DNA from: a virus
Virus record (IMG/VR): IMGVR_UViG_3300035698_014712
Span: 1 to 54,773 of that record
Length of the DNA stretch: 54,773 nt
Reading direction: 5' to 3' (one strand)
A program made the translations under genes and the position numbers. Of this stretch, positions 4,232 to 52,155 are shown piece after piece (position 1 is the stretch's first letter; every line of letters begins with the position of its first letter). The notes beneath the pieces were generated by a model. That model ran no database searches and was not told where the DNA came from. It saw nothing but the letters and a program-made list of their open reading frames with translations.

Positions 4232-4399
4232 ATGACACAAGAACATAGAAGCAGAAGAGCAGCAGCATTAGGGAGATTAGTGCTACAGTTAGGCAGTGGA
4301 GTTAAAACTCGTAAGAAATCATTTACAGGTAAAGAACCTTTAACTGATAAAGATATTAAAAGAATTAAGGCAGAAATAGTAATTTTAAAATCAGAATAG
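4232..4399 (+). CDS. Very small basic protein (55 residues)
   Basis: ATG at 4232, TAG at 4397-4399. The product starts MTQEHRSRRAAALGRLVLQL and is strongly basic, with a second basic patch (KTRKKS) and a Lys-rich C-terminal helix. It sits five bases after the previous stop and three bases before the next ATG, which is normal tight phage packing and supports it being real despite its size. Its charge suggests nucleic-acid binding, as an inference only. The opposite-strand frame spanning 4219-4617 is a shadow. Confidence 0.6.
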   Translation: MTQEHRSRRAAALGRLVLQLGSGVKTRKKSFTGKEPLTDKDIKRIKAEIVILKSE

Positions 4400-28917: not shown

Positions 28918-28929
28918 TAATAAATAAAA

Positions 28930-29913
28930 ATGAGTAGAAGTTTATTAGTAAAAAGAACATCCGTATTACCGGAAGAGTACCCTGAATTCTTGCCATTTTT
29001 AGATGCAATAAATAACACAATGTGGTTCGTAAACAAGTGGGATTTTAGTTCAGATAAAAATGACTTTGCGAATTTAATGACTGTAGAAGAAAAGCAAGCA
29101 AGTGTAAGAAGTTTGTTAGCAATTGCTCAAGTAGAGATTAAAGTTAAAAGATTCTGGGTAAATCTATATGACATGTTTCCTAAACCAGAAGTAGATGCAG
29201 TTGGCATATCTTTTGGAGAAAGCGAAGTTAGACATCAAAGAGGTTATAAAAAACCTTTACAAATATTCGGTTTAGAAGAAGAATTTAAAAACTTGGACGA
29301 AACGGAATGCATTAGAGACAGAGTAAAATACTTAGAAAAGTATCTCGCTAAAACTAAAAAATCAAATGACATACAAGATTATTTGATGGTGTTGTCTCTT
29401 TTTACTTTAGCTATTGAGAATTCTTCCTTATTTGGATTATTTTCAATTGTAAAAGTGATTAACAAAGAAAAAGGTTATCTTAAAGATACAGATAATGTAA
29501 TTATGGATACAACCAAAGAAGAAAATATTCATGCTTTGTTTGGAATCTATTTAATTAATTTGTTAAAAGAAGAAAATCCAGAAATTTTTCCTGATAATTT
29601 TGAAGAGTTATTAAGAGAATGTATGGTAAAGTCATATGAAGCTGAAGCAAAGATTATAGATTGGGTATTTGAAGCAGGAGATTTATCTTACTTGAAAAAG
29701 GAAGAAGTAAAAACCTACATTAAATACAGAATAAATTATTCTTTGGAATTGCTAGGTATGAAAGAACTTTATACATTGAACATTGAAGAGTTAGAGAAAT
29801 TTGATTTCTTTGAGTTAGAACAATCTTCTACAATACACGTTGACTTTTTCCATAAAACTAGTCCAAACTATAATAAATTTAGTAGGGCTGCTAACACAGA
29901 TGATTTATTTTAA
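28930..29913 (+). CDS. nrdB: Ribonucleotide reductase class I small subunit
   Basis: This 327-residue diiron protein has metal ligands in ESEVRHQRGY (ExxH, with the radical Tyr four residues after His), AIENSSLFGLF (Glu) and KEENIHALFGIYL (ExxH). The first carboxylate position is occupied by Glu in AIAQVEIKVKRFW rather than the usual Asp. The C-terminus RAANTDDLF resembles the R2 tail that docks into NrdA. It lies upstream of nrdA by two bases. Confidence 0.92.
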   Translation: MSRSLLVKRTSVLPEEYPEFLPFLDAINNTMWFVNKWDFSSDKNDFANLMTVEEKQASVRSLLAIAQVEIKVKRFWVNLYDMFPKPEVDAVGISFGESEVRHQRGYKKPLQIFGLEEEFKNLDETECIRDRVKYLEKYLAKTKKSNDIQDYLMVLSLFTLAIENSSLFGLFSIVKVINKEKGYLKDTDNVIMDTTKEENIHALFGIYLINLLKEENPEIFPDNFEELLRECMVKSYEAEAKIIDWVFEAGDLSYLKKEEVKTYIKYRINYSLELLGMKELYTLNIEELEKFDFFELEQSSTIHVDFFHKTSPNYNKFSRAANTDDLF

Positions 29914-29915
29914 AT

Positions 29916-33893: not shown

Positions 33894-33912
33894 AAGTATA
33901 AATTATAAAAGT

Positions 33913-34383
33913 ATGAACTTTAAAGAGTTAAGAAAGAACATGATTGTGTTAGTAAATACAATCAAAGAATTAAAACCAAGTAGAAATTTATCTTTATGTT
34001 TAACTCATGTTCAAACAGCAATGATGTGGTCAGGAAGCTATTTAAAATTTACTGGAACAGGAGATAATCCTTATTCCAAGTCAGATGGAAAAAGAAGAAC
34101 GATAGTAGACATTGAACCAATGTTTGATAACACAAGTAAAACTTTAGATGTAGCTCTAATTAAGGAAGATATAGTAGTAGTGGTAGATCAAATAAGAACT
34201 TATCTACAAGAACAAAAGGATATTTTAATTCAGTTTGTATTAAACGAAGAAGAAAACCGAAATTTAACCCCAGAACAAAGTATAGAAGCTAGTGTTTGCT
34301 TATCTAATATTTACAAAAGTATTGCAGAAGCAAGAATGTGGTTAGGTATGGAGTTGGGAAGATTGCGAGATGAGGGAAAGTAG
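33913..34383 (+). CDS. Hypothetical protein (zero-frame product), ends at a frameshift signal
   Basis: This is a 156-residue product read from ATG 33913; the TTG at 33883 inside the upstream gene is a less likely start. It is a helical protein, MNFKELRKNMIVLVNTIKEL then PSRNLSLCLTHVQTAM..., with a central RTIVDIEPMF region and a helix-rich C-terminus. It ends ELGRLRDEGK followed by TAG. The last three codons (GAG GGA AAG) form the -1 slippery heptamer GGGAAAG at 34374-34380, so a fraction of ribosomes may extend it by 32 residues. Function unknown. Confidence 0.65.
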   Translation: MNFKELRKNMIVLVNTIKELKPSRNLSLCLTHVQTAMMWSGSYLKFTGTGDNPYSKSDGKRRTIVDIEPMFDNTSKTLDVALIKEDIVVVVDQIRTYLQEQKDILIQFVLNEEENRNLTPEQSIEASVCLSNIYKSIAEARMWLGMELGRLRDEGK

Positions 34384-34478
34384 AAACTGCAGCAAAATAT
34401 CAATACTTATACCACGTAATTTGGGGTAAATTAGATGCTTTACTAAAAGCAGAATTAAAGAAATCTTATCAAAATTAA
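34374..34478 (+). other. Candidate -1 programmed frameshift site and transframe extension
   Basis: G_GGA_AAG (34374-34380) is a canonical X_XXY_YYZ slippery heptamer directly before TAG (34381-34383). The -1 frame continues from GTA (34380) for 32 codons to TAA at 34476-34478, with a coherent, amphipathic sequence (VETAAKYQYLYHVIWGKLDA...). The same heptamer is used by lambda gpG/gpGT. A simple lost A (AAAA to AAA) would explain the same break. No strong downstream pseudoknot was found. Confidence 0.5.
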
Positions 34479-34504
34479 AAAGGGAGCCATTTGGCTCCCT
34501 TTTT
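34477..34504 (+). terminator. Bidirectional terminator between convergent blocks
   Basis: AAAAAGGGAGCC (34477-34488) pairs with GGCTCCCTTTTT (34493-34504) around ATTT. It ends with a T run on the plus strand, and the reverse complement also has a T run, so it can stop transcription from both the rightward early block and the leftward giant genes. Confidence 0.9.
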
Positions 34505-34522
34505 CTTTTTTCTTACAATAGG

Positions 34523-37500
34523 TTATTTATCCCAGTAATGTTTATATAAAGATTTGTAGCCAGGCATAAGATTTCCGTCTGGGTCCATGTGATAATCTTT
34601 TATTACAGGGTACTTTCCTTTCCCTTCGTTATAATAAGGATTATCTACTACTTTAGTTGCTTTTTTCTTTTTCTCCTCTCTAGAGTAAGAGTCTCCGTAT
34701 TCAGATACAAGTTTATCTATTTCTTCTCTCCTAGCTTTAAGTCTTTCTTTATTAACTTTTTCTATTAATGGAGCTTTGATTTGATCAATAAAATTTTCAG
34801 CGTCGTAATCTCGCTTGGATTTACTTCCAAAGCCAAGAGAAACCCAATCTTTAAGCCCTGAAGGGGTTATAAATCTACCTGCTTTTACTGCAAATTTGCT
34901 TTTTCCCCTGTTTGGTCCTCCTACATATTCTCCTGCAGGAATACTTGTTAAAAGATCTAACCCTCTTTTAGTTCCAAATAAATCTCCATCTCTAACTAAA
35001 CCTTCAGAATTAACTAGCATGTTACTATCTGAAATAAATCCAGATAATGTGTTTTCTAAAATGTAATACATTGCGGTATCTGGGTCTTCGTACAATCTAT
35101 GAAAGAAACTTCCTTCAGGGCTGTAAAAAGGGGCTTTCTCTCCCCTAAGAACTAATTTTTTATGCTCTTCTTTTTCATCTTCTCCAGGGTAAAGCATCAT
35201 CATTACTCCTGCTTTTAAAATTAAAAACCGAAGAGTGGCAGCAATAGAGGTAGAAAGAAAATGCATGTCTTCTTGTATTTCTCTTACTTTATCTGGAGTA
35301 AATTCTTCTCCTTTAGAATCTGTTTCAATACCAGCCCCCATTATTTTTTTAATCCTATCACTGTCAATAAAAGGTTTTTTAGTCACAGGATTAACGATCA
35401 TACTTATAGTTTGAGCAGCTAACCCTAAAGCCATTTTGCCATTACTATGAAGCATTTTTTTATTCATTCCTAAAGCATTTGTATAATGTAAAATAGTAGC
35501 TTTAATTTTATTTTTGTCTTCAATAGCTTCTGCTTGCATAGTTCTTTTATTGTTATACAAAGTATATCCAATTAAACCAGCAGCCATAACAAAAGGCCCA
35601 ACAGCAACAAGACTTGTTGTAGTAGCTGCAGAATATGCTACAGCTTTTGCTAATATTAAAGCAGAAGCTACACCAGCTTGTTCATTACTCCCTAATCTTT
35701 TTAATACTTTAAATTTCTTTTCAATAGTCATTATTGCCCATTTCTTAAACATCAAAGTCATAGCACCAAGAAAATACTTTTCTGCTAATACCGTATCTAT
35801 GTCTCTATACCCACCATTTATAAAAGCAATTTGTTTAGGGATATGTCCTGATTCTCCAAATAAATCTGCAGCTCTAGAAGAAGTATTAAAAATAAAAGTA
35901 TCTCTATTTTCTTTAGTATTAAACTCTTCTTTTAGCACTAAGTTACCATTAGTATCTTTATCTGTATTAAAAGCAGGAAAACTCATAGTTTCTGTGTCAA
36001 ACATTTTAATAGAAACTCCATTTTTATCTTTAATATCTAATTTTGACATTAAAGAAATAATTTGTGGTCGTTGAATTGTCTTTTCTACCTCACTTACAGA
36101 GTTCATAGGATTTTCTAATACTGCATTAAAGGCATTTCTTGATCTGGATTTCTCCATAGTAAAAATTTCATTTCCACTGTTTTGGAAAAGACCATATCTT
36201 CTCAACATTAAATCAGATATTTCTCTTGCTTTTTTAGCTTCTGGACTAGGGTTAATCCCTCCTCTTACACCAAAATGATAATTTACTTTATGGTAAGTTC
36301 CAGCATCCCAAAATCCTTTTCTCCCATCTACTTCCTGTGCATTTAATCCTGCAATAGTCATGTTTGTCCATTGGGCTGCAGCGTTCACAGAGAAAGCTGC
36401 AACTCTGGGTAATTTCATAAAAAATGCTTCTGCCACGGAGCCAAAAGTAAGAACCTTCCCATCACTGTCCAGAAACTCTTCAAAAGCCATGATTTCTTTA
36501 GATATTAAATCTTTTTGAGGTCCGTCTGGGAGATCCGCTTTGAATTCTTTTAATCTTACAATAGAAGCATCTGCTGCTGCTCTTACTTTTTTTTGATGTT
36601 CGTTATAAAACCTAGTAAATTTTGTAACTTTAAAATCTGATAAATTAAACTCTCCTCCAAGCTTGTTCCAATTTGCACGATTGTTAATTCCAAACATGTT
36701 CCGTTCCATAAAATAATCTGCTACTTCTTTAATATTTTTTCTGTCTGTTTTTTCACTTATAAAGTTTTTAATGAAATTCATCTTATACTCTATTTCTTTT
36801 TTTGCCTTAAATTTTTCTGCCATTTCAGAAACAGAAAGAATGCTATCAATTAAATCGTCTTCTTGATTCTCCATAACAATTTCTCTGGCTTCTTCTTTAG
36901 CTTTTTGTTTTTGAGCCATAGTAGGTTCAGCATATCCTCCAATAATTTTTCTGGCAATCTCATCTATTTGTTGATCCACAGTTTTAATTGCACCTGATAT
37001 ACTTTCAGAAGAATCTTGGTATCTATCTGTTGCTAAAGCACTGTGCATAGTTTTTAAAGTTTTTGTAGACAAAACTCCAGCCATTTGCATTGCAAAATTC
37101 TTAGTTTTTTTAGCTACACTTCCTAAACTGTACTCAGTTAAATCATTAGGATTTTGATTAAACCCATTAGCTGTGTTGTATTCCACTAAATCAGCCATGT
37201 GTCCCCAAGCTTCATTTAAAATTGGGTCATTCTCAATTGTTTTAAAATTGCTGTCAAAATGTTCTACTTTTTTAGGAGTATAAGAAATAAATTCTAGATC
37301 AGCTAATAGATTGTCTACCAACTTTTTTTCTCCTTTTACATAAAAAGCTTTTGTAATTTTGTTAGTTCCTTTATTCCTAAAATTTTCTGAAAAAATAAAA
37401 GGGGATTTTGCATAAAGATAATCCAGGTGCCTATTGTATACACCTTCAGGAATATTTCCCTCCAATTCTTGATTTTCAGAAAGCTTAAATCTGTCTCGTA

Positions 37501-39103
37501 ATCTACTTTCTCTTTGAGTCTCAAAAATATTAAACGAATGGATGTTTTGAATTTGTTCTTTTACAATTTTATCATATTCTCTTGCACCAATCTTATCAAT
37601 CCTTTCTGTTTTATAGTCTGCAGCATCTTTTGCACTCATAAAAGAGGCAGAAAATTTACTAAAAGTTGGGTCTCCAATAATTTCTGGTATCCTTGTTGCA
37701 TCTATAAAATCTGAATTTTTGTTCAAATTATCAAAATGAGCATTAATTTGTTTTACTTCGGCCCTTGTTTTAGAAGGAGAGTATAAAAATTTATTTATTT
37801 TATTTTGAGAAATTAAATTTAGACGTTTAAAATCTACCCACAAAGGAGAAAATTTACCTACCAATTGATGAGAAGTACTACTTTTTCTCTCAAAAATACT
37901 AAAATCCACTCTCTTATTAAAACCCGTCCCTTTTGTTTGCTTTAATTCTTTAAGTCTTTTTGCTAATTTGTTTTTAATATTATAAAGTTTTTCTCTTTTT
38001 TCTTTGTTGTTATTAATATACATTGCATCTGCATACACTTTTTGTAAAATAGAAAGTAAAACATTACTTTCTTCTTGTCCTTCTAGAGAAGTGTAAAAAG
38101 ATTTACCAATACTTATGTCTTTGTTTGTTGATTTCTCTCTTTTTAAATAATTAGAAATTTTTTGCATTCTAGTTAATTCGCTCTTAACTTCTTTTACCAT
38201 CTGATTGTTAAACAATCTTTCTGCCTCTTCTACTAATTGATCTTCCCCTAAATCTTTATATTCTTCTTTTCTTTCTATGTGACTTTTAATATAATTTTTA
38301 ATAATGTCAATAGTCTTAACATCCAGTTCTTCTCTTAATAAAGTAACATCTGCTTTAACTTTTTTAAGTTGTTCATGGACTTTAGAATCCTCTTCTTCAA
38401 TTTGGTGCAATGGCTCAGTAAGTAACCCTCCTTCTTCATCACTAATCAAAAGATCTAGCATTTCTAGGTATCGATTTATGGTCTGTATATTTTCTAAATT
38501 AGGGTTTTTTGCTAATCTTTTTACATTCCTAATATCTTTTTGGATACTTTCTAAATAACTGCCTAATTCTTCGTCCGTTTTTTGAAGATTATAAATATCT
38601 GTGTAAAGAGCTCTAATTAAATTGTTTAACTCTTCTACTTTGACTACTTCTTCATTAGTTTGTACTTTATTTTTAAGTAAATCTCTTTGTTTTTCTAAAT
38701 CTTCTTTTAAAAGCATTTTTTGTCCTAGCACATTTTCATAGGAAAATTTATTGTATACAGGAGTTGAACTTGGCATGTCATTAAAATAAAGATTTCTTCC
38801 TCTTTTAAGTTCTTCTATCCTAGCTTCTAAATCTTTGTTTTTTTGAAATTCATTATCAGAATCAATTTTATCTTGTAAAGATTTATTAATAATTTTAGTG
38901 TCAGAAGTCTGATACACTTCTATTTCTTCTCCAGTTTTTCTTACTCTTATAATCATGTTACCAGAAAAAGACTGCCCATTAATTAAGGCAGCTTTTTTCT
39001 TGGCTTCTGTATAATTTTTATTAGAGAGTAACTTAATTGCATTCTGAACTTGATTGTCAAATATTGATTTTACTTCTATTTCTTGTGTTTTACAATTTGC
39101 CAT
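34523..39103 (-). CDS. Large virion-associated protein (1526 residues)
   Basis: This giant structural or injected protein of a crAss-like phage type has an N-terminal half of mostly charged coiled-coil (residues of about 30-330). A central region has FNQNPNDLTEYSLGSVAKKT, and a long hydrophobic stretch lies at about residues 1141-1182 (ALILAKAVAYSAATTTSLVA and on), with another near 1288-1305. The membrane-like stretches fit a protein that inserts in or crosses the host envelope during ejection. The start overlaps the stop of the giant polymerase gene by one base (TAATG on the minus strand). No enzymatic motif found. Confidence 0.7.
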   Translation of the reverse strand: MANCKTQEIEVKSIFDNQVQNAIKLLSNKNYTEAKKKAALINGQSFSGNMIIRVRKTGEEIEVYQTSDTKIINKSLQDKIDSDNEFQKNKDLEARIEELKRGRNLYFNDMPSSTPVYNKFSYENVLGQKMLLKEDLEKQRDLLKNKVQTNEEVVKVEELNNLIRALYTDIYNLQKTDEELGSYLESIQKDIRNVKRLAKNPNLENIQTINRYLEMLDLLISDEEGGLLTEPLHQIEEEDSKVHEQLKKVKADVTLLREELDVKTIDIIKNYIKSHIERKEEYKDLGEDQLVEEAERLFNNQMVKEVKSELTRMQKISNYLKREKSTNKDISIGKSFYTSLEGQEESNVLLSILQKVYADAMYINNNKEKREKLYNIKNKLAKRLKELKQTKGTGFNKRVDFSIFERKSSTSHQLVGKFSPLWVDFKRLNLISQNKINKFLYSPSKTRAEVKQINAHFDNLNKNSDFIDATRIPEIIGDPTFSKFSASFMSAKDAADYKTERIDKIGAREYDKIVKEQIQNIHSFNIFETQRESRLRDRFKLSENQELEGNIPEGVYNRHLDYLYAKSPFIFSENFRNKGTNKITKAFYVKGEKKLVDNLLADLEFISYTPKKVEHFDSNFKTIENDPILNEAWGHMADLVEYNTANGFNQNPNDLTEYSLGSVAKKTKNFAMQMAGVLSTKTLKTMHSALATDRYQDSSESISGAIKTVDQQIDEIARKIIGGYAEPTMAQKQKAKEEAREIVMENQEDDLIDSILSVSEMAEKFKAKKEIEYKMNFIKNFISEKTDRKNIKEVADYFMERNMFGINNRANWNKLGGEFNLSDFKVTKFTRFYNEHQKKVRAAADASIVRLKEFKADLPDGPQKDLISKEIMAFEEFLDSDGKVLTFGSVAEAFFMKLPRVAAFSVNAAAQWTNMTIAGLNAQEVDGRKGFWDAGTYHKVNYHFGVRGGINPSPEAKKAREISDLMLRRYGLFQNSGNEIFTMEKSRSRNAFNAVLENPMNSVSEVEKTIQRPQIISLMSKLDIKDKNGVSIKMFDTETMSFPAFNTDKDTNGNLVLKEEFNTKENRDTFIFNTSSRAADLFGESGHIPKQIAFINGGYRDIDTVLAEKYFLGAMTLMFKKWAIMTIEKKFKVLKRLGSNEQAGVASALILAKAVAYSAATTTSLVAVGPFVMAAGLIGYTLYNNKRTMQAEAIEDKNKIKATILHYTNALGMNKKMLHSNGKMALGLAAQTISMIVNPVTKKPFIDSDRIKKIMGAGIETDSKGEEFTPDKVREIQEDMHFLSTSIAATLRFLILKAGVMMMLYPGEDEKEEHKKLVLRGEKAPFYSPEGSFFHRLYEDPDTAMYYILENTLSGFISDSNMLVNSEGLVRDGDLFGTKRGLDLLTSIPAGEYVGGPNRGKSKFAVKAGRFITPSGLKDWVSLGFGSKSKRDYDAENFIDQIKAPLIEKVNKERLKARREEIDKLVSEYGDSYSREEKKKKATKVVDNPYYNEGKGKYPVIKDYHMDPDGNLMPGYKSLYKHYWDK

Positions 39104-42100
39104 TATTTACATGTATTTTTAGTTATTTTCATAGATGGTAATAACGTTACACTATTTTCATCTACCACATCATTTGAAGGATCTCCTGAGTTATCTTGCT
39201 CATCCATTATCATTTGTTCTTGTTGAGCAAAAAAGTCTGGAGGTGGACCTTCATTTTGTTCTTTTTGCTGTCTTATTTGTTCCTCAGTTACTTGTGGATT
39301 TTTTTCCACAGGTTTTTGTGCTTTTCTGTCTGTAGCAACTTTTTCTACAAAAATGAAACTAGCTTTCATAGCTTGCAAAGCTATGGTATTTTCTGCTATT
39401 CCTTCTCTTTTTCCAATTCTTTTTATCATGTCAGTAATAAACTTCCCAAATTTTTCTATGATATTAGAGTCTGATTTTAGGTATTCTATCTTACCGGCAA
39501 ACTTTTTAAAGTTTTTATTGTTGCCTAGAGAAGTTGCAATAAATTCATTTAAGTCTACAGAAGGATAAAATATGTCTATGTCTTCCGGAGTAAAAACAAC
39601 GGAGGTAGGCAATTTTGCATCTGCATCTGCTTTGTACTCTTTCCACTTAGCCAAAAATTCTTTATATCTAACTTGAGTTTCTGGATTTGAAGATAAATGA
39701 TTTCTATATGCACTAAGCACATTGTTTAAACCCACCAATTCACTTGGAGCATTTTCTTTCAAATCTCCAAACTTGTCTAAGTTAGCATTAACTTCTGTTG
39801 CAGTAATTAAATGTAAAGTTTCATGCATAAAAGTTGTTGCTAAAGATTCTCTGTCGGCTATTAATTCTGGGTTTAAAACTAAATACATCCCTTTAGAAAC
39901 TCTTCCTTGAAAGTCTCCTTCTTGGTAATTTAATACTTGTCCGTCTTGTACAAAAGGAATTAAATAATCAGCAATTTCTGCCATATTAGAGTAATCTCCA
40001 TACTCTCCATTTTTAATTTGAATTAAAAAATCTTTTACTAGAGAACCATTTTTTGGTACATTCCCAAATTTTTGTTTTGCTACTGCTTCTAATTCTATTC
40101 CAGAAACATCTTCAACTGTTTTTACTTTCTCTTTTCCTAGTACAGAAGTTACTTCTTTTTTTCCAAATTCGTATTCAGCCATTCCATTTTCTCCTAGGAC
40201 ATCAACCCTAACATAATGTTTTTGTCCTTCTACTTTTTGATATATATGCCATTTTTCTTGTCTAAGTTTACTTTTATTTATTAGCTTTTTAGCAACAAAG
40301 TCAAGCTCAGTTTCTCCACTAACAGCAGTGTAAACTTTATCCCCATTTTCAAGAACGTGTTCTTTCATTGGAGTTTGTTCTATTGAATCTGGATTATTTT
40401 GGAAATATTGTTTTTTAAATGATTTTAATAAACCGGAACCACCACCTTCTGTGTTAAACGTATTAAGCAATCTTAACTTATCACTAATACTAGAAGTACC
40501 CCCTTTTTTATTTTTGAAGGTCATATCGTCTAAGTATTCAATTGGTAAAAATTTATGAAACCCTAAAGCCCCTTGTACCACACCTCCAGAAACATAAGAA
40601 TAGGCAATTAATTCCTGAGCTAACATTCTGGTAGTGTATGCCTCCTCAACTCCATTTCTTTTAATGTTTGGAAGTTTAGTTTCCTCTGCTATCAACTCTT
40701 TAAAAGAAAAGTATATGGCTTCTTGATTAGCTTCGAAAGATTCTTGGTTATTAAATGTAATTAAAGATGGCTTACCATTTTCTCCCATTGGAGTTTTTAA
40801 ATAATTTAAGAATAAATTGTTTTTTATCTTGTTAACACCATCTGTGTTTTCTCCATTTATTTTTAAGTTGTTTATATAAGTACTTAAAGATTCATGATTA
40901 GCTTCTTTGTTATCGATAAACAAATCTTGTCTTGTTTGTTTAGCATCAATATCAAAAAGACCTAAATTCTTTTCACTAGTCAAATATTTTTTAACTTCTT
41001 GAAAAATTTGCTCTTTAGCTTTAATAACTGCAAAAGTATTATTCGCATCTATTTTACTGTCTTTAATAATATCTTCAATAACAGTATTTAGATATTTGTT
41101 TTTTGCCGGAAAAAGATTAGTAAACAATCCTTCACTTAAAGATAAAGCAGTACCCACCATTATACCTTGATTGGTTGTAGGTGTCATTACTACATTATTT
41201 CCTAAATCTATCTGTCCTTCTAATAAAGTCTCTCCTTTTTGAGAAAATTCTCCCACTAAAGTTTCAGCCCCTATTATTCCATTGTCTTTATTAGTAAAAA
41301 ATTCTCTAAATTCTTTTGCTTTAGTTGTAGACTCCCACATAGATTTACCTAAATTACTTAAATCTACATGTTGCATCAACTCTTTTACTATTTTTGCTTG
41401 CCCAGCTAAATTTGTATACATAGCAAGTATCTCTAATTGGTTAGTCCCATTTGCATTATCCCCTAAAACAATTTGATTTTGTAACATTTCTGCTGTAAAA
41501 TCTTCATTTCTTTGATCAGAAACAAAAGTCTCTTCCCCATTTACAGTTTTAAGCTCTCCGTATCTTCCTCCAACAAATATGCCTGGCTTTCCTTTATAAT
41601 TTAATCCTCCAGGAGTAGTATTAGTAGGAGTGTATTTTTTTAATAACTGATTTATAGCCTCTTCTTTAGCTTTTCCTCCAAACTTTGTAGTAATAGATTC
41701 CTTCTCATTTATAATTGCAAAGTACTCTTTAATTATTGGTTGAGAGTGCAGCAAGTAAGGTATAGAATGTTCTGTGTAGTAAACAGGCTTTCCGTCTACT
41801 TGTGCTTCTCTGTGAAAAGGTGCTCCTTTTACATAATCTTTTACATCTAACACATTAAATTCTGAATCAAATCCTAATAAAGACAGTAAACTATCTACTG
41901 CAATTGCATCTTTATGGTTTAATCCTGTTCTGCCAAGTATTTGAGCTATTTCATTATCTGTTCCTGTGTTTGTTCTTTCATCTAACACAGCTGATATTCT
42001 TCTAATAAATTTTTTAAACATTGGGTCTTTAGAAGCTAAAGTAAGCATCCTTCCAAATTTTCCTTCACTCATTAAGTTACCAATTCTTATCCTGGTAAAG

Positions 42101-45100
42101 TTTCCATCTTTGTCCCCTAACCTAACATCATTTTCAACACTTACTTGTTGTTGTATTAAACTGTGCATTGTTACAGCTTTAGCATAAATACCAATAGCAT
42201 CTTGGCCAGTAGAACCGGCATTCATTTTTTCCATTTGATATTTTGGAGAAAGAATATTAAAACTATTTGATCTAGCTTGTGACAGCAAAGTAATATCATC
42301 TGCTTGCTTTTCTGCATAAGACATAGATAACACTTTGTTAATTTGTTTTTGAGTTTTTACATTAGAATATACAGAATTATGAACTTTAATAAATTTATTT
42401 TCTAATAATTTAAGATCAAAATTCTTACCTAAATCTTCTTTAATGTCTTGAATAAGTTCTGCAAATTCCTCGTCCGAACGAATAGAAGATAAATCTCCTA
42501 ACCCTTCGATAGAATCTGCAAGTCTTACTGCAGCAGCTACTTTGTTTTCTGCTCCTTTTTCTTTGTTAGAATTTGATTTAGCTGACTTTGTGTACAAAGA
42601 TTCAATTTCTACTAATATTTTTGTTTTTTCTGCAATGTAAACATCTTTGTTTTTTTCAGTTAATTCTTTTATAGAACCATCTTCCATTACTATATGGTTG
42701 TATTGGTAAGCTGTTAAACTATCAATATCAAAATCCTGCCCCATCTGAGCAATAAACCCTTTAGGAGTAACAACTAAATCTCCAGACTCTGGAGGTAAAA
42801 ATCCTACCACTTCGACAGAAGTACCAAGTCCATGAGAAGAAGTTGGAATCCTAAAAACAAATTGTTCTAATAATTTAGCATCAACCATTTTTTCCTTGAT
42901 TCTTATAATGCCATCTACTTTTTCTAAGTATACTCCATCTTTTCCATCAAATTCTTCAAATAAATCAATTAGTTTACCATTTAATTTAAACTTAGAAGGT
43001 ACTAAAATCTGAGCTTTTGATAGCCCTCCATCTTTATTTCTTGTACTTTGTAAAGTACCTCCTTTAAAATCTCCTAAGTGGATAATTCTACTCTTTTCAA
43101 CTTCTTGGTCTTCTATTACTTCAAATCCATTTTCAGATGCAGTAACAAATTTGTTCCCGGCTATTTTTTGCTTAAATATTTTATTGTTAATTAAAGCATT
43201 TAACATTGATTCATACTTATTACTGTTACCAGATAACCATAAAGGCAACTTAAAAGTTTTTCCTCCTTTACCGTCATCTACTAAAGTTAAAGTTTTTAAA
43301 TCTTGTTTAGAAAAACCTCTGCTTTCTGCTTCTCTTCTTAAAAGAACTTCCAGTTTTTTCATAAATTTTTCTGGGTCTTTAGCTTGTAAAGAATCATCTA
43401 AATTTAAAGCCTTTAAAAACTTATCTTTTTTCATGCCAATCATAGCACTAAAAATTTCATGGAACTCTGTTTGCAATTCTTTACCTGCCATTGGTTTTCC
43501 TTCGTATTCAAATCCATCCATGTCCATAACACCATCCCCCATAAGTAACTTAAAGATCTGAGTTCCCATAGAAACAGAATCATCTTGAACTACTTTAGAT
43601 TTAAAAGGGACATCTTGTTGTATTTTAAAATGTTCTCTTTTTAATTCTAACATATTTTTTGCAACAATAGGTTGATTAAAATCTTTAATTGTATTTTCTT
43701 GAGTTAAAGCCCCTACTTTATTTGCTGTTTGATAAGAAGCTCTTACAGTAGTTTTGTAAACTTTTTCTACTTCTTCCATATTTTTTCTTAGAGCATCTAA
43801 GTTTCTTCCCACAGTTAATTGAGGTATTAATGGAAAAGAAGAAGATTTAATATAAACCATTCTGTTTACATCTTGCTCAACATCCATTACTGTTCCAGAA
43901 TAAACTGGTTTAATAGGTTGTAAGATTAATTCTACTTGTGTCAGACCATTAATGTCAGTATTTGCATCTTGGATAACAGTGTCTAGAAGCATTTTTTTAG
44001 GAATTTCTTTTCCTTTATTTTTTGGGTCTGATAAAAATTTATTTTGTGCTGCAATTTTAGCCTTAATGTTTTTTAGGGTTTTAACAGGAACTCTTCCTTG
44101 CTTTTCTAAAATATATAAGTGTTCTTGTGTCGTTGTGTATTCCTGTGCATCAGTACTTTCGATGTCAATGAACTCAGCTATTCTGCCAAACTTGTTTTCA
44201 AGTTGGCTTATATATTGTCTATTCCCAGTCTGTAGATTTTTAACCATGTTTCCATAAGATACTCCATCTTCATTTTTTTCACTTAATGCAGGTTTCCCAT
44301 AATGCCATTCTATAATGTCAGCTAAATTATCTGCTGCTCCATTAACATCTTCTAAAAACACTTGCATGTAAGAATTGTTGTTAGAGTCTGTCAGCACACT
44401 CCCCGGTGCAATCATAGATGCCATTCTTTTCCCTAAGTTAATAGCGAGTTGATTAGAGATAGAATTTTGTTCTGCCACATTTTTAGATGTTGGGTCTCCT
44501 TTTGCTTTGTAGTATAAAGCTGGATCTCCAGACATTAATTGCATGTAGCTCATGTTTGTTAGCATAGAGTTTAAAATAAAATCTACTTCTGCAACATTCA
44601 TATTTTCTTCAACAGTACCTTCTCTTTGTTTTAAATAGTTAGCATTATTAAATCCATCTATCTTGTCATTAAATTGAGTAAGATCTTTTACGTTGTTTTT
44701 TGCCTCTACAGTTACATTGTCTTGTATTAATGCCCCTGCGGATTCTCCAAATTGACTCTGAATTTCTGCAAGAATTTCTGACTGCTCTTTACCTTCAAGA
44801 CTCTTTACAACCTCGATTATGTTTTGCCCTTTTCCGTTTAAAATAGTATTTAGCTCAGGTATAAGATTAAATCTTACTGCCCCTTTGTCATATAAAGTTT
44901 TGTCATTATTACTTCCTCCCTGTATATTAGTTTTCTTAACAGTAGTAACAAAATTTACCATTCTTTTCAACTCAGGAAGAACTAATTGATCATATAATAA
45001 TCCTTGAAGGTCTTCATTAAATGATATTTTTCCATCTTCAATTGTAAAAGCTTTTCCAGATTCTTTATAAAAATCAAACACTCCTGTTTTTAAAGACATC

Positions 45101-48100
45101 ATTCTTCCTTTATCTGAGTTGGTCAATGTATTCATTTGAGCCATTCTAACTTTAAAAGGTAACCCTGCTATATCTTTTTCTTGTCCTTGATTTCTGTTTT
45201 GAAAACCGGCTCTTTGAGTAAACATGTAATCAATAGAACTCAATTGATCTATCCCAGCATTTAACGGAGATTTTTTGTATAGTTCTTTAAGAGACATTAA
45301 GTCCATCATTCCGTGATCAAATTGTTTTGCAAAAACATCGTCTTCCATTAACATTTTTAATAAGTAAGAATCCTGGCTAAAACTTAAGCTTTGTAATTCT
45401 TTTAAATATTTCTTTTCTCCTTTTGGATCTAAAGCAGATCTTTTTATTTTATTAATTTGCTCATAAAAATATGTTAAGCTTTCTACTTCAGAAACACTTT
45501 TACCATTAATATATCTCGATGTACTTCCATAAGAAGGATTGTTAGTTACTTCTAATTCTGATAGTTGTTCTAAAATAGAATTCATGTCAGAAAAAGGGTG
45601 ATTTTCTGTGTTGTCGTAAAATTCTATATCTTTTTTACCACTATTAAAAACAGCATACTGCATAAGATTAGAAAACAAATTACCTGATCTCATTTCCTTT
45701 TCAGACCCTAAAAACAATTCACTAAATGTGGCTTTCTTTAATCTTCCTCCACCTTCAGATACATTTAATTCTCCTTTTCTCAGAGAATTCCAAGTATTTT
45801 CAGACAAAGTAATACCAAATCGATTTAACCATTTTTGGTAAACTTCATTAGATTGATTTTCTGTACCTCTTTTTTCATACCAACTGTCCCATTCTTCTAA
45901 AGCTGCATTTAATTCTTTTGAATTAATTGTTCCTTCATCGTTAATAGTTGAACGTTTAAAGTTTTCTCTCCACCCATCTATTACTGCTCTTTTAGCTTCA
46001 TTAGCATTACTGTCAAAAAAACTACTTACAACTCCTTTAGAAGAGTCATAAGAAAGAGTTGCAAATTTTGCATGTATTTTTTGCTTGTACATGTTATAAA
46101 CAAATTGATTCTTAACTTGTTCGTCTGAACTTCTTAATTTTTCAATTAAAGATTTCATCCATGGAGCTGAATCTTGTCTTTTATCTAACAAACTCATCAT
46201 CTCGTTAAAGTTGGGAGTTAAATTAATGTCACTAGAAAGAGATAAAGATATGTTGTCATACATTTGTTTAAATGATGCATACTGATCTAATCCCATAAAA
46301 CCAGTTTCTCCAGTTTTTATCTGAGCAAATATTCTTTTTAAAGCTGTACCTACTTTATCAATAGGTTTAGTTTCATTACTTGCTTTACTAAAATCTTTAA
46401 CATTTTCCGTAGTTTCATCTTCTGTAAATTCATCTGTAACAAAAGAAACATTAACTGCTTTGGTAGAAGCTTCTCTTAAGATTCTATCCATACCCTCTAA
46501 TATTTTTTCATTTTGTTCTACTGCAGTTTCTAAAACTTGTTTAGTTTTGTAAACTACGGTATTTTCGTCAAAAGCCTCTAATTGAGAAATAGCCTGGTTT
46601 AATTTCTCTATTTTTAATGTTAAGTCTTTACTTAAACTATTTTTAACTTCTTCATAATTACTTTCTTTGTCTGCAAGTTTTGCAAATAACCAATCTACTA
46701 CATTTTGCTCGTCTTTTATACTAACTCCTTCTGTTAAAACAATAGACTTACTAACTTCTTCCGCTGTGCTCATTTCAGCCACAACTAAATCATTATTTTC
46801 ACTAGCAGGAGCAATACTTAGATTTAGTTCTTTTGCTAAAGCTATAGCATTTTCCATTGCAACTTCCCTTTGAGCTTTTTGTTCTAAAGATAATTCTGTA
46901 GAAGATTCAATTTCTTCTTCTATAACTTCCGCTACTTTCTTAGCAACTTCTGGAGTCTTTTTCTGAGCTTCTACTTTTTCAACTAAAGTTGGTTCTTGTT
47001 TAGTAGAGATAGGTTTAATTTTAATTTTTTGTTGTGGAGCAATAGTATACACAGGTTTAGACTCTGTTCCTACATTGTATCCCATAACATTTGTAGACAA
47101 TCTTTCTTTTAGAAAGTCTTCATAGGTTTCTGCAATATCAACAGTCTCCCCATTTACAATTTTAGGTGTAATTTTAATTGCCTCTACTATGTATTTACCA
47201 TTTTCTTTTCTTATACTAAACATTTTTTTAGTATAAGCATACTTAGTATGTTGAACAAAGCTTGAAGCAGGAGTGGTAAACTTATTTGTTTTAGTGTTGT
47301 ATCCCAGTAACATATCTCCCAGCTTACTTCCTGACGTTGTTTTCTTACCATTAGGTGTTGGGTCTTGATGTGCAATTAAACCTTCTATTATAGAAGCATA
47401 ATCAGATTCAATATCTTGTCCAGTTAATTTCAAAACTTGTCTTCTAATATCGTCAGCTTGCTCATTTGTCATGTAATGAGGGTGTCCTTGCTTTGCTAAC
47501 AATGGGGTTACCCCTGTTTTAGATTTACCAAAACTAGTTATTTTATTTACTGCAGCAACTATCTGAGCTGTTTCAACATCTTGCTTGTTAGCTTCATCTT
47601 TTTGATTCTCATCTTTTCTTAATACTTCTAATGCAATATACTTTTTAACTCCATTTTCTGTAGCTATGTGACTTAAGTAATGTGTACGATCTCTTTTTTT
47701 AGCTGCTTTGGAAGGCCTTACCTTACCATCTGCACCTTTAGTTAATACTACTTCAAATTCTCCAAACCCAGACTCAAAGTCTCCGTAGTTAAGTACGTCT
47801 TCTTGATTAATTTGTTTATTGTCTAAAGTAAATAATTTACCCTTGTTATTCATGTAAATTAAAACTGAATCAGGACCTACTTCATTTAAAGATTTTGTAG
47901 GTATGATATTTCCTTCTGAATCCATTTTATCTATTATCTGTAAAGGAGGAAAACTTAAGTTGTCTATAATTTCCACTTCTTCAACAGTTTTATTAAGAAT
48001 CTCTCTCCTAAATTCTAAAGCCTGTCTTTTGTTTTCATTAATATCTTCTTGGTGACTTTCTGAAAAGTTGTCAAGATCTATCTCGTCCACATCTTGAGAA

Positions 48101-51100
48101 CTGTCTCCTACAGAAGTTTTACTGTACCATTCTACTTCAGTCACAGGAGAAACTGTATTCCCTTCTGCATCTTTGTAAAAAATTGGCACTTTACCAATGT
48201 ACTCATCAGTAGCTTCAAACTCTGCATCTGACAAATTAGCCGGCTTGTTGTCTTTATACCAAGCTTCAAAAGTTATAGTAGATTCTTCTTTACCATACTT
48301 ATCTCTCACGGAAACTAAAGTGTCAGCAAGGTCTCTTCCTTCTAACACAAAAGGAAATAATAAAGAACCGATGTTATTTTTATTTGGGTTAACAAGATCT
48401 TTTATAGAAAAAGATTTGTTATTTCTCATTTTTGGTATAGCAGATTTTACTTTTATATAAACTTTTTTACCATCTACTATCTGAATCTGGTGCTCAAATT
48501 CAATAGCAGAATAATGTAAAGTCATATCTGTTCCATAAGTTTTACTAGCGTTGGGAGAAACGTGTGTTGGAGTCTCACTATGACTTTCATAATTTATAGG
48601 AGTACTAGTACTTTTTTTATTAGTTACTTCCTCTTCTTTTTTGTCTTGTTTTATTTTTTCTTCTTCAGAAATAACCTCTGGCCTAGTGTCAGATTGAGGT
48701 AAGACTTTTTCATCATTTCTTTTCTTAATAGCTGATACAGAAGAAAAGAATTCTTTATGTAATTTTTTCCAGTCTGCTTTTCCAAATCCTTGCCCTTGCC
48801 ATAATAAAGCAAAAGTTCTTAAATGAGAATCAAAACTTTCTAAATCCATGTCTCCCTCTAAAATCAAATCATCAATGAATTCTTCAAATGTAGGTTTTTT
48901 ACCTAGTTTTGTTTCTAGCCTGGATACCCATTCTTTAATGACTCCTGCCATTTCATTAAGATCATTGTTTTCATGTCTCATGTTTCCGTCTTCTCCTTTT
49001 ACCATAGGCATTAAAGAAAAGAAATCTTCTTCTGAGTTTTCGTCTTCTGGGTTTTTCCTATTAAATTGTGCATCTGGGTCCCCAAATTCTGCAGAATCTT
49101 CTTGTGTTTCAGATACTCTAGAATTATTTTTTTGTGCCTGTACTTGTTCTTCTACAGCTTCTGTTCCGTTATCTACAGTTTTTTCTAAAGTTTCTAAATC
49201 TTTTGATACTTCTGGAGAGCTTCCTTTTTTAACGGGTTCTTTATTTTCTACTTCTGTAGCAATTTCTTTTTCAAACTTTTCTCTATTTTTTAATAAAAAA
49301 TCTTGGAGTACAAAAAGATCTAAATTTTTTGTTGCTGCTACCATAATACTAGGTTTTACACCAACACCATATTTAGCTTTTATTCGATCTATAGCATATT
49401 GTTTACTGTCTACGTTAGTTCCTTTTTTCTTATTTTGTTTTTCTGCAAATTTGTATTCTTTTTTAAGATCTACAGTTACATCTGCTTCATCTTGAAGCTT
49501 TCTTCTTGTCTCTGTAGAAGTCTCTTTTTTTATTTCTTGAGCAAGAAGACCTTCATTCTTAGTTATTGCAACCAAAGCCTCCTCTATCCCTGCCAGTTGT
49601 CCATCTCTTTCTGGAGATACTTCTTGACCACTCAATTCAGATTGCTTTTTAAGTAATTGCTTTTTTTGTTTTTTAGAATATCTTTCTTTAGATTTTAAAT
49701 CAAGAACATAACTTTTGTTTCTTAAGTCTCCGTGTTCTCTCATTTCAGACTCTAAAGCGTTTACTTCATCGATTGCTTCTTGAACATTGTTAATTGATGC
49801 TGCTGGTATTAAACCTTTAGCAATAGCATTTTTCATTTCACGAACAAACTTTTTTCCTTTACCTGCTTCAATCATTGACTTACCTAAATTGTAAGTTCTG
49901 TTACGATCGATATCATTGGCTTCTTCATTTTTACCTTGTTCTCTCAACTCTGCAATTTTGTTGTTAGTCGCCTGTATACTAAAGTTACCTGCTCCTGCAG
50001 CCATTAAAAGTTCATCTACTTTTGACTCTGACAAACCTTGTTTTTTAAATTCAGAAATCATTTTATTAAATGCATTTCTGCTTTCTTTATTTTTCTTTCT
50101 GCTTTCTTTATTTTTCTTTCTATCCTTAAAAGCATTATACCCGGTCTTAAGAGAATAAACTCCTTTCATTAGTCCTGACATTAAAAGAGTTTGCCCTGCC
50201 ACTTGTCCGTAAAAACTTGCAGTTAATAATTCTCCTCTTCTTTGAATCGCTTCTTGATCTGTTTCTCCATATACTGGGACTAATTGAGTCATTACTTCTT
50301 CTCCCATCTCTTCTAAGTTACCTCCAATTAAACCTTTAGGGTTTAATTTATCGATAATTGCAGATTTACTCCCTAATTTTTGAAAAGCTTCGTCAAGATT
50401 ACTTTTAAGAAATGAGTTAAATTGCCCAGCTTTTCCGGCTGCCCTGTTTAAATTTTTAGCCCAAGGCTTTGCAAGCAGCTTTTTAGTCTGAGAGTTTACA
50501 AATACTCCTTTAGCTAATTTTCCACCAAAATGTTCTATCACTATTTCTTTAAGTACTTCAGTAAAACCATAAACGGTAGAGTCAAATAATCCTTCAGGTT
50601 TTTTAATAGAATTTTTATATTTTTCTATTTCTTTTAATTTAAAATTTAACTCTTTAATTTTGTCTGGATCTTGCTCTGTCATTAAAGAGTCCATTATTTT
50701 TTCAGATTCTATTCCAGCTTCTCCTATCATTTCTTTATAGGTAAGCCTGTCTGTAGTAATTTTAAGTTCCCCATCTTCTCCTAAATCAAAATGAATATCT
50801 CCATAATATTTATTCATTGATTTTTTCTGAAAATCTGCATGTAGTACAGTTTGTCCTACCATGTTCAAAGACTCTGATGCAATAACACTTGCAATTTCTG
50901 CACTTTTTTCTCCCATAGCAGCTTTTGTCATTAAATTTTTCTTTGCAGAAACTTTAGCTGATTTGGTTATCCCTTTCATAAAAAATCTTGGTCCTAACCC
51001 CCCTACAAGAAAAGCAGCAGAAGTGTAAGTACCTTCAAGTAAATTATATAGTGTGTTTTGTTCTAGACCTAAAGCTTTTCCTTCACCTGTTAAAGCCAAA

Positions 51101-52155
51101 GCATTTACTGCAAGGTCTTCATTTTCTGTAAGCCCTTCTCCTGATTCTATTTTTTCATGTAAAGGTTTAAAGTGTCTCCATTTATTGTACACCCCCATAG
51201 CTCCAGCCGAAGCTAAATCAATTAAAAACTCGTCTCCCGTAGGATTAAAAGTATGAGCACCTTCTAGAAAATCATTAATTCTAGTTTTTTCTGATTTAAG
51301 TTTATTACCTGCATATATTAATAAATGATCATCTGCAGCCATAAAAGGATTCCACGTTTTAATACCTAACTTATCTATTCTTTTTTCAAATTCTTGATAA
51401 ACTGGCTCTATAGCAGCTTTCATTATTTTTGCAGCTGGTATTCTTAATTGTTTTCTTTCTTCTAAAGCTTTTGTGTATTCTTCTTTTGCTTCAGATCCTC
51501 CTTCCATCCCAAAAGAATCAGGAGTTATCAAATCATACAAAGAATTTATTCCTTTTAAAATTGCAATAGTTGCATTTTCCGGATTAAAAAAAGAATTTTC
51601 AGCTCTCCATTTATCTAAATACTGATTGTCTTTGTCAACTGCTACTTGAAAACTAGGATTTTCTTTTTCGATTTTTGCTATCTTTGCTTCAACTTCTTTG
51701 TGAGCATTAATATGGGTGTCATTTATATTCTCATGCCCTTGCCCTTGCATTTTTCTTAAAGTTTTAATTAAACTAGAATCAACTTCTTGAGTAACTTTTT
51801 CTTCTTCGTAAGTTTCAAATTCTTCTACTGTTTCATAAACAGGAATTTCTTTTTTATATTGATCTTCTGCATATGCTGGATAATAAGCTTTTGCTTCTTC
51901 AGACAAAACATTGTGCAAAGGATCTTTTTTGTAATTCTCAATTTCTTGTGCTGGGGTAACAGCATTAAGTTTTTGTTCTTTAATTTCCATGTCATTATTT
52001 AACATGTCCATTACAGAATTTTCATCCATCTCTGAAGTTAAACTTTTTCCATTTAACTCTAAAGAAGAAACATATTTTCCTTCTCCATCTATTATACCTC
52101 CATGAATATAATCATACCCATTTGCCTGTAACATTTTAACGTCTATGTCGTCCAT
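39103..52155 (-). CDS. Giant virion RNA polymerase-protease polyprotein (about 4350 residues)
   Basis: Read from ATG at 52155 (MDDIDV...), four bases after the previous stop; an upstream TTG at 52206 would add 17 residues but overlap the neighbour. MGQDFDIDSLTAY places the DxDxD motif at D3141-F-D-I-D3145 (bases 42721-42735), the catalytic metal site of the crAss-like virion RNA polymerase. HETLH at 4111-4115 (bases 39811-39825) with a preceding LATTFM helix is a zincin metalloprotease motif. The N-terminal 700 residues are charged, and a Gly-rich region lies near 630-660. It is probably packaged and injected to transcribe early genes. In related phages these parts are often separate genes. 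Confidence 0.9.
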   Translation of the reverse strand: MDDIDVKMLQANGYDYIHGGIIDGEGKYVSSLELNGKSLTSEMDENSVMDMLNNDMEIKEQKLNAVTPAQEIENYKKDPLHNVLSEEAKAYYPAYAEDQYKKEIPVYETVEEFETYEEEKVTQEVDSSLIKTLRKMQGQGHENINDTHINAHKEVEAKIAKIEKENPSFQVAVDKDNQYLDKWRAENSFFNPENATIAILKGINSLYDLITPDSFGMEGGSEAKEEYTKALEERKQLRIPAAKIMKAAIEPVYQEFEKRIDKLGIKTWNPFMAADDHLLIYAGNKLKSEKTRINDFLEGAHTFNPTGDEFLIDLASAGAMGVYNKWRHFKPLHEKIESGEGLTENEDLAVNALALTGEGKALGLEQNTLYNLLEGTYTSAAFLVGGLGPRFFMKGITKSAKVSAKKNLMTKAAMGEKSAEIASVIASESLNMVGQTVLHADFQKKSMNKYYGDIHFDLGEDGELKITTDRLTYKEMIGEAGIESEKIMDSLMTEQDPDKIKELNFKLKEIEKYKNSIKKPEGLFDSTVYGFTEVLKEIVIEHFGGKLAKGVFVNSQTKKLLAKPWAKNLNRAAGKAGQFNSFLKSNLDEAFQKLGSKSAIIDKLNPKGLIGGNLEEMGEEVMTQLVPVYGETDQEAIQRRGELLTASFYGQVAGQTLLMSGLMKGVYSLKTGYNAFKDRKKNKESRKKNKESRNAFNKMISEFKKQGLSESKVDELLMAAGAGNFSIQATNNKIAELREQGKNEEANDIDRNRTYNLGKSMIEAGKGKKFVREMKNAIAKGLIPAASINNVQEAIDEVNALESEMREHGDLRNKSYVLDLKSKERYSKKQKKQLLKKQSELSGQEVSPERDGQLAGIEEALVAITKNEGLLAQEIKKETSTETRRKLQDEADVTVDLKKEYKFAEKQNKKKGTNVDSKQYAIDRIKAKYGVGVKPSIMVAATKNLDLFVLQDFLLKNREKFEKEIATEVENKEPVKKGSSPEVSKDLETLEKTVDNGTEAVEEQVQAQKNNSRVSETQEDSAEFGDPDAQFNRKNPEDENSEEDFFSLMPMVKGEDGNMRHENNDLNEMAGVIKEWVSRLETKLGKKPTFEEFIDDLILEGDMDLESFDSHLRTFALLWQGQGFGKADWKKLHKEFFSSVSAIKKRNDEKVLPQSDTRPEVISEEEKIKQDKKEEEVTNKKSTSTPINYESHSETPTHVSPNASKTYGTDMTLHYSAIEFEHQIQIVDGKKVYIKVKSAIPKMRNNKSFSIKDLVNPNKNNIGSLLFPFVLEGRDLADTLVSVRDKYGKEESTITFEAWYKDNKPANLSDAEFEATDEYIGKVPIFYKDAEGNTVSPVTEVEWYSKTSVGDSSQDVDEIDLDNFSESHQEDINENKRQALEFRREILNKTVEEVEIIDNLSFPPLQIIDKMDSEGNIIPTKSLNEVGPDSVLIYMNNKGKLFTLDNKQINQEDVLNYGDFESGFGEFEVVLTKGADGKVRPSKAAKKRDRTHYLSHIATENGVKKYIALEVLRKDENQKDEANKQDVETAQIVAAVNKITSFGKSKTGVTPLLAKQGHPHYMTNEQADDIRRQVLKLTGQDIESDYASIIEGLIAHQDPTPNGKKTTSGSKLGDMLLGYNTKTNKFTTPASSFVQHTKYAYTKKMFSIRKENGKYIVEAIKITPKIVNGETVDIAETYEDFLKERLSTNVMGYNVGTESKPVYTIAPQQKIKIKPISTKQEPTLVEKVEAQKKTPEVAKKVAEVIEEEIESSTELSLEQKAQREVAMENAIALAKELNLSIAPASENNDLVVAEMSTAEEVSKSIVLTEGVSIKDEQNVVDWLFAKLADKESNYEEVKNSLSKDLTLKIEKLNQAISQLEAFDENTVVYKTKQVLETAVEQNEKILEGMDRILREASTKAVNVSFVTDEFTEDETTENVKDFSKASNETKPIDKVGTALKRIFAQIKTGETGFMGLDQYASFKQMYDNISLSLSSDINLTPNFNEMMSLLDKRQDSAPWMKSLIEKLRSSDEQVKNQFVYNMYKQKIHAKFATLSYDSSKGVVSSFFDSNANEAKRAVIDGWRENFKRSTINDEGTINSKELNAALEEWDSWYEKRGTENQSNEVYQKWLNRFGITLSENTWNSLRKGELNVSEGGGRLKKATFSELFLGSEKEMRSGNLFSNLMQYAVFNSGKKDIEFYDNTENHPFSDMNSILEQLSELEVTNNPSYGSTSRYINGKSVSEVESLTYFYEQINKIKRSALDPKGEKKYLKELQSLSFSQDSYLLKMLMEDDVFAKQFDHGMMDLMSLKELYKKSPLNAGIDQLSSIDYMFTQRAGFQNRNQGQEKDIAGLPFKVRMAQMNTLTNSDKGRMMSLKTGVFDFYKESGKAFTIEDGKISFNEDLQGLLYDQLVLPELKRMVNFVTTVKKTNIQGGSNNDKTLYDKGAVRFNLIPELNTILNGKGQNIIEVVKSLEGKEQSEILAEIQSQFGESAGALIQDNVTVEAKNNVKDLTQFNDKIDGFNNANYLKQREGTVEENMNVAEVDFILNSMLTNMSYMQLMSGDPALYYKAKGDPTSKNVAEQNSISNQLAINLGKRMASMIAPGSVLTDSNNNSYMQVFLEDVNGAADNLADIIEWHYGKPALSEKNEDGVSYGNMVKNLQTGNRQYISQLENKFGRIAEFIDIESTDAQEYTTTQEHLYILEKQGRVPVKTLKNIKAKIAAQNKFLSDPKNKGKEIPKKMLLDTVIQDANTDINGLTQVELILQPIKPVYSGTVMDVEQDVNRMVYIKSSSFPLIPQLTVGRNLDALRKNMEEVEKVYKTTVRASYQTANKVGALTQENTIKDFNQPIVAKNMLELKREHFKIQQDVPFKSKVVQDDSVSMGTQIFKLLMGDGVMDMDGFEYEGKPMAGKELQTEFHEIFSAMIGMKKDKFLKALNLDDSLQAKDPEKFMKKLEVLLRREAESRGFSKQDLKTLTLVDDGKGGKTFKLPLWLSGNSNKYESMLNALINNKIFKQKIAGNKFVTASENGFEVIEDQEVEKSRIIHLGDFKGGTLQSTRNKDGGLSKAQILVPSKFKLNGKLIDLFEEFDGKDGVYLEKVDGIIRIKEKMVDAKLLEQFVFRIPTSSHGLGTSVEVVGFLPPESGDLVVTPKGFIAQMGQDFDIDSLTAYQYNHIVMEDGSIKELTEKNKDVYIAEKTKILVEIESLYTKSAKSNSNKEKGAENKVAAAVRLADSIEGLGDLSSIRSDEEFAELIQDIKEDLGKNFDLKLLENKFIKVHNSVYSNVKTQKQINKVLSMSYAEKQADDITLLSQARSNSFNILSPKYQMEKMNAGSTGQDAIGIYAKAVTMHSLIQQQVSVENDVRLGDKDGNFTRIRIGNLMSEGKFGRMLTLASKDPMFKKFIRRISAVLDERTNTGTDNEIAQILGRTGLNHKDAIAVDSLLSLLGFDSEFNVLDVKDYVKGAPFHREAQVDGKPVYYTEHSIPYLLHSQPIIKEYFAIINEKESITTKFGGKAKEEAINQLLKKYTPTNTTPGGLNYKGKPGIFVGGRYGELKTVNGEETFVSDQRNEDFTAEMLQNQIVLGDNANGTNQLEILAMYTNLAGQAKIVKELMQHVDLSNLGKSMWESTTKAKEFREFFTNKDNGIIGAETLVGEFSQKGETLLEGQIDLGNNVVMTPTTNQGIMVGTALSLSEGLFTNLFPAKNKYLNTVIEDIIKDSKIDANNTFAVIKAKEQIFQEVKKYLTSEKNLGLFDIDAKQTRQDLFIDNKEANHESLSTYINNLKINGENTDGVNKIKNNLFLNYLKTPMGENGKPSLITFNNQESFEANQEAIYFSFKELIAEETKLPNIKRNGVEEAYTTRMLAQELIAYSYVSGGVVQGALGFHKFLPIEYLDDMTFKNKKGGTSSISDKLRLLNTFNTEGGGSGLLKSFKKQYFQNNPDSIEQTPMKEHVLENGDKVYTAVSGETELDFVAKKLINKSKLRQEKWHIYQKVEGQKHYVRVDVLGENGMAEYEFGKKEVTSVLGKEKVKTVEDVSGIELEAVAKQKFGNVPKNGSLVKDFLIQIKNGEYGDYSNMAEIADYLIPFVQDGQVLNYQEGDFQGRVSKGMYLVLNPELIADRESLATTFMHETLHLITATEVNANLDKFGDLKENAPSELVGLNNVLSAYRNHLSSNPETQVRYKEFLAKWKEYKADADAKLPTSVVFTPEDIDIFYPSVDLNEFIATSLGNNKNFKKFAGKIEYLKSDSNIIEKFGKFITDMIKRIGKREGIAENTIALQAMKASFIFVEKVATDRKAQKPVEKNPQVTEEQIRQQKEQNEGPPPDFFAQQEQMIMDEQDNSGDPSNDVVDENSVTLLPSMKITKNTCK

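Follow-up and report, generated by a model that had tools for sequence, protein, structure and literature searches.

A giant viral protein combining a crAss-like RNA polymerase and a zincin-type domain on a single predicted chain

The virus described here encodes, in a single open reading frame (ORF) of 4350 codons, a protein that almost certainly carries an RNA polymerase, followed toward its C-terminal end by a zincin-type domain. The window, i.e., the whole stretch of 54,773 nucleotides that was analyzed, corresponds to the virus record IMGVR_UViG_3300035698_014712. The homology to the RNA polymerase of Cellulophaga phage phi14:2, the presence of both conserved motifs on one chain and the order of the modules, kept in near relatives and in phi14:2, were observed directly. 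The reading that we favor, and consider probable, is that of a crAss-like two-barrel polymerase that is packaged and injected, with a zincin active during ejection or following it.

The giant ORF and its polymerase region

The ORF lies on the minus strand, from an ATG at 52155 to a stop at 39103 (Table 1), which bears out the length and position given in an earlier note that had left the strand out; the plus-strand frame over the same interval is full of stops. The same note had placed the motifs DFDID and HETLH in one frame about 970 residues apart, and indeed each occurs once, at residues 3141-3145 and 4111-4115, exactly 970 residues apart. In a protein of the same composition, chance would be expected to yield 0.002 DFDID and 0.06 HExxH motifs, and in 50 simulations of these 13 kb under a Markov model, open frames reached 121 codons at most. 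Searches of the whole protein against Pfam and NCBIfam gave no match, and the PHROG 16227 profile, which spans 4401 positions, matched it at 1096 bits. The same gene, with 4200-4500 codons, is present in Fipvunavirus and in several environmental phages. Seven other distinct full-length homologs (two from Fipvunavirus, five from environmental contigs) are all single ORFs of 4237-4499 aa with a motif spacing of 938-1004 residues, and shorter or split relatives show spacings of 909-963. Since independent contigs carry the same single ORF with both motifs, an assembly artefact is excluded, and a chance occurrence of HExxH is rejected because the motif is conserved.

The closest comparison is provided by two Flavobacterium phages of the genus Fipvunavirus, whose products Fpv20 gp33 and Fpv3 gp32 (PHROG 16227) are single ORFs of 4419 and 4287 aa, with DYDID and HEVIH located 957 and 949 residues apart and a gene order like that of the window. 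They share 30% identity with the window protein over about 3500 residues, but their N-terminal third can barely be aligned with it.

Table 1. Features of the giant ORF and of its two neighboring genes (positions in the window; residues of the giant protein unless stated otherwise).
Feature	Position	Strand	Basis
Giant ORF, 4350 aa: N-terminal helical region, predicted two-barrel RNA polymerase and zincin	39103..52155	-	PHROG 16227, 1096 bits
N-terminal region, residues 1-900, predicted almost all alpha-helical	49456..52155	-	AlphaFold2 mean pLDDT 63.8, hydropathy
Variable charge-rich linker region, residues about 901-1250	48406..49455	-	Length 308-542 aa among homologs
Second N-terminal domain, residues about 1251-1700	47056..48405	-	Conserved in the family only
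RNA polymerase, residues about 1791-3960, boundaries approximate	40276..46785	-	Homology to phi14:2 gp66
DFDID, catalytic metal-binding motif	42721..42735	-	Aligned with DFDID of phi14:2 gp66 (residue 1361)
Low-confidence linker between polymerase and zincin, residues 3986-4018	40102..40200	-	pLDDT <50 at model residues 47-79; variable in alignment A1
Zincin (metalloprotease-like) domain, residues about 4020-4285	39301..40098	-	
HETLH, predicted HExxH zinc-binding and catalytic motif	39811..39825	-	Invariant H, E, H in 11 proteins
Glu4204 in LNEFI, candidate third zinc ligand	39544..39546	-	Invariant in 11 proteins
Downstream gene, 1526 aa, hydrophobic segments near its residues 1143-1300	34523..39103	-	
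Upstream gene, 626 aa	52160..54040	-	Weak relative of Fpv20 gene in same position

The assignment of a polymerase made in the earlier note is supported by direct homology. A profile of residues 2480-3420 had a sole match in the PDB, the phi14:2 RNA polymerase 6vr4 (E = 4.2e-36), with matches between residues 870 and 1582 of the 6vr4 chain and an alignment that covers its residues 966-1582 and sets DFDID on DFDID. Similarly, a single-sequence BLAST against phi14:2 gp66, annotated as the catalytic RNA polymerase subunit, placed the DFDID at 3141 on that at 1361 (E = 9e-18), and segment profiles aligned gp66 from about residue 122 to 1492 with window residues of about 1840-3270. With tblastn, the central region matched Fipvunavirus at 40% identity and, more weakly, polymerases of the Crassvirales, including phi14:2 gp66 (E = 8e-7). 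Membership of the giant protein in the crAss-like polymerase family is thus well supported, as judged from sequence homology.

The phi14:2 polymerase is established as a virion protein that transcribes the early genes (PMC7886860, PMC10136315, PMC10172136), and the polymerase proteins of crAss001 were found in the virion by mass spectrometry (PMC10172136); for phi14:2, the annotation of gp65 to gp67 draws on MS/MS of virions. By analogy with these two phages, the polymerase of the window phage would be packaged, injected and used for early transcription, and the giant protein is very probably a virion cargo. A giant virion protein combining a two-barrel RNA polymerase with another virion function is also known from Thermus phage P23-45 (gp96; PMC10770324), but there the polymerase is fused to the tail tape measure protein of a long-tailed phage.

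The part preceding the polymerase is less familiar. Residues 1-900 contain no clear transmembrane helix, belong to no known family and have no convincing match in the PDB or the Crassvirales, and no relative of the N-terminal 1750 residues was found outside their own family. A homology of residues 1-1700 to phi14:2 gp67, the protein encoded upstream of the polymerase in that phage, or to other crAss-like proteins was rejected, as no match beat the reversed decoys. The fold search with the N-terminal model returned the giant protein A0A1B0WM03 as its sole significant match; weak matches to tape-measure folds were discarded because they reflect long helices. Low-complexity linkers are located near residues 901-1250, 1700-1790 and 3986-4018.

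The zincin domain and its position in relatives

In an alignment of 11 proteins at 22-48% identity (A1), positions H172, E173, H176 and E265 are invariant, the last being a Glu located 93 residues past the first His of HExxH. The AlphaFold2 model of this region has a core pLDDT of mostly 80-95, with strands at model residues 135-155, the HExxH helix at 163-185 and the Glu-bearing helix at 263-271. Its elements thus follow one another as a helix, three strands, the HExxH helix and the later Glu helix, the same order as in the published description of zincin peptidases from phage polyvalent proteins (PMC5512222). Against viral models, Foldseek matched internal virion proteins of podoviruses (Bordetella phage BB8, Pseudomonas phage Ab05 and Pantoea phage LIMElight) as well as giant proteins of cr271_1, cr116_1 and another crAss-like virus, with a probability of 1.00 and E from 5e-5 to 2.5e-3. 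The sequence profile of the domain matched the 1337-residue internal virion protein of 9sfn in the PDB (E = 0.002), with both motif stretches aligned, and Pfam gave sub-threshold SprT-like matches only. As a fold search of the model against the PDB returned nothing significant (best E = 0.39), the zincin fold rests on the sequence pattern and the viral models. The invariant HExxH and Glu and the matches to other phage zincins support a protease-like domain around HETLH, as in the earlier note, and assign it to the zincin type. We infer that it binds zinc and cleaves proteins, and judge it somewhat more likely than not to be an active peptidase.

That the corresponding parts lie in two or three genes in related phages, as the earlier note had said, is right: in phi14:2 (Crassvirales, Steigviridae), for example, gp67, gp66 and gp65 are separate, and the gene borders shift between phages. 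The zincin of phi14:2 is found at the start of gp65 (residues 204-355, E = 4.8e-6, with a best decoy of 0.5), directly after the polymerase gp66, so that polymerase and zincin succeed each other as in the window but in two genes instead of one. In the window, both are in one gene and the downstream gene is separate, whereas in the relative L010 a single gene of 2901 aa runs from the C-terminal half of the polymerase through the zincin into the downstream protein. The order polymerase, zincin, downstream protein is therefore constant in the window, phi14:2 and L010, with shifts in the gene borders only. Hydrophobic segments are present toward the C-terminal end of the downstream protein in the window, Fpv20 and phi14:2 alike, and the 1526-aa product of the window is a candidate membrane or ejection partner. 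A profile comparison found no homology between this product and phi14:2 gp65, and that identification was rejected.

In crAssphage types, a related zincin is present in the block of transcription genes (cr11_1, jaberico, cr271_1, where it is annotated as "RNAP associated protein fused to zincin protease", and cr116_1). Unlike in the window, it precedes the polymerase there, either at the end of the upstream protein, as in jaberico, or N-terminal on the same chain, as in cr116_1. By contrast, an HExxH is absent from all three giant ORFs found in DAC15, a crAss-like phage, and the zincin must thus be dispensable for some such polymerases. The module is mobile and not universal, and the fusion of polymerase and zincin is not unique to the window.

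Several relatives present a broken gene. In three contigs (L010:3-18394, L011:1184-10972 and L012:1184-10972), the giant gene is interrupted some 120 residues ahead of DFDID, around window residues 3013-3019; the resulting genes, of 3262 and 2901 aa, are separated by about 5.9 kb containing ORFs of structural appearance. This seems to be a naturally occurring two-gene version of the two-barrel polymerase. An intein at the L010 split was considered and rejected, the extra ends of both halves having, by eye, no obvious intein start or end; as the ORFs of the intervening 5.9 kb look structural, a true two-gene split is more likely. Another contig (L008:2208-14479) is split earlier, into 1226 and 2859 aa, the second piece beginning at window residue 1325, and this break falls at or adjoining the linker of residues 901-1250. 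In cr116_1 (L020:8464-19329), the polymerase ORF stops at the DxDxD region; beyond it come a small interposed ORF and a second long one, which gives the look of an interruption by an intron or a homing gene.

Possible roles of the zincin

Under the reading that we favor, a single chain made of a long helical N-terminal part, the polymerase and a C-terminal zincin on a flexible linker would be loaded into the capsid, pass as a thread through the tail upon infection and regain its fold inside the host cell; there, its polymerase would transcribe the early phage genes. The zincin would exert a metallopeptidase activity during ejection or later, either on the linkers of its own chain or on a host or envelope protein, and would not be an obligatory processing enzyme in assembly. 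As the zincin is also found in internal virion proteins lacking a polymerase, its distribution suggests a function linked to delivery.

The closest parallel in function is the virion-carried gp50 of coliphage N4, which similarly consists of an N-terminal domain, the polymerase, a short linker and a HExxH domain (PMC12633501, PMC5512222). The flexible linker between polymerase and HExxH domain measures 23 residues in N4 (PMC12633501), and the low-confidence stretch at residues 3986-4018 of the window protein is comparable to it. However, the N4 polymerase is of the T7 type, unrelated to the two-barrel enzymes, and gp50 has a long extra C-terminal domain past the zincin. A broader, more tentative proposal, to which we give limited credence, is that the zincin is a general ejection module joined by unrelated podovirus lineages to the protein that enters first: a T7-type polymerase in N4, a two-barrel polymerase here and internal virion proteins without polymerase elsewhere. 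Such a module would cut the delivered protein off the entry channel or open its way, and would explain the repeated origin of the pairing between virion RNA polymerase and zincin.

Processing by such zincins has been predicted, and it has been suggested in general terms that proteins of this kind are cleaved on assembly or once injected (PMC5512222). All in all, that the zincin of the window protein cuts its own chain, mostly after injection, is possible rather than probable. The readings below are not strictly exclusive, as one protease could cut both itself and a host protein.

A cut made only after injection could free the polymerase from an N-terminal part left at the entry channel, one of the options proposed for such proteins (PMC5512222), and would suit a domain common to proteins that share ejection and not polymerase activity, such as the podovirus internal virion proteins. 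We nevertheless regard it as unlikely: in L010, with its zincin joined to the polymerase C-half and to the downstream protein, further cuts would be needed. A target in the host, e.g., an envelope or defense protein, instead of the chain itself has been proposed as well (PMC5512222), and the varying position of the zincin in cr116_1, jaberico and phi14:2 is what would be expected if only co-delivery were needed. Conservation within the family, however, cannot separate such a target from the protein's own chain; we consider it doubtful. Given that the zincin-bearing region of N4 gp50 is required for encapsidation while the protein is uncut (PMC5512222), and that the N4 C-terminal domain inhibits the polymerase (PMC12633501), the domain could also serve structure or folding, binding zinc without cutting anything, and be needed for instance for packaging. 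The catalytic Glu of HExxH, dispensable for zinc binding alone, is yet invariant in all 11 proteins, which leaves such a module as a minor possibility.

Finally, we consider very unlikely a polyprotein whose zincin would cleave the linkers while the capsid is assembled, leaving the N-terminal part, the polymerase and the zincin as separate pieces in the virion. The three low-complexity linkers offer room for it, the pieces can exist apart (as in L008, or in phi14:2 with its zincin in a separate gene) and P1 DdrB, which has a C-terminal zincin, is processed before packaging (PMC5512222). Against it, the N4 virion RNA polymerase, in which a zincin directly follows the polymerase, reportedly enters the virion uncut (PMC5512222), its recombinant full-length form showed no degradation (2025 preprint PMC12633501) and no cut site was identified in the giant protein.

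Affiliation of the virus and meaning for the family

Eight window proteins match Fpv20 within the stretch compared, and the giant gene and its neighbors follow an Fpv20-like order, adjoining replication genes on the opposite strand. By these matches, the virus is related to Fipvunavirus; it is also related to the gut crAss phages. Fpv20 encodes homologs of the phi14:2 terminase, portal, capsid and IHF, and its taxonomy line puts Fipvunavirus outside the Crassvirales; no head gene was identified in the 54.8 kb of the window. In a published analysis, Fpv3 and one gut genome formed a group outside the five crAss-like groups (PMC7886860).

The rest of the window presents other features. Long ORFs are mostly on the plus strand to the left and on the minus strand to the right of a convergent switch point at 33900-34520, where the sign of the GC skew flips. 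Adjoining rIIA-like and rIIB-like genes (PHROG lysis inhibitor families) are found at 17051-20571; genes of this kind are better known from T4-like phages. A GroEL-like chaperonin gene is located near the genes for both ribonucleotide reductase subunits (26668-31661), and phi14:2 likewise has groEL and both subunits.

Fpv20 gp33 and Fpv3 gp32 are annotated as virion structural proteins only, on a basis that is not given in the Fpv20 record, and the present analysis identifies the giant family of PHROG 16227 and Fipvunavirus, hitherto annotated as structural, as crAss-like virion RNA polymerases with a zincin. No paper making this assignment was found, in a literature coverage that lacked several key papers. 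The parts and the idea were already known; what is added is the family assignment and the single-chain layout of polymerase followed by zincin. The function of zincins in injected phage proteins is an old question that Fipvunavirus phages, which grow on a cultured host, could make testable: the chain is single, has a single candidate active site and comes in natural variants whose gene is divided in differing places.
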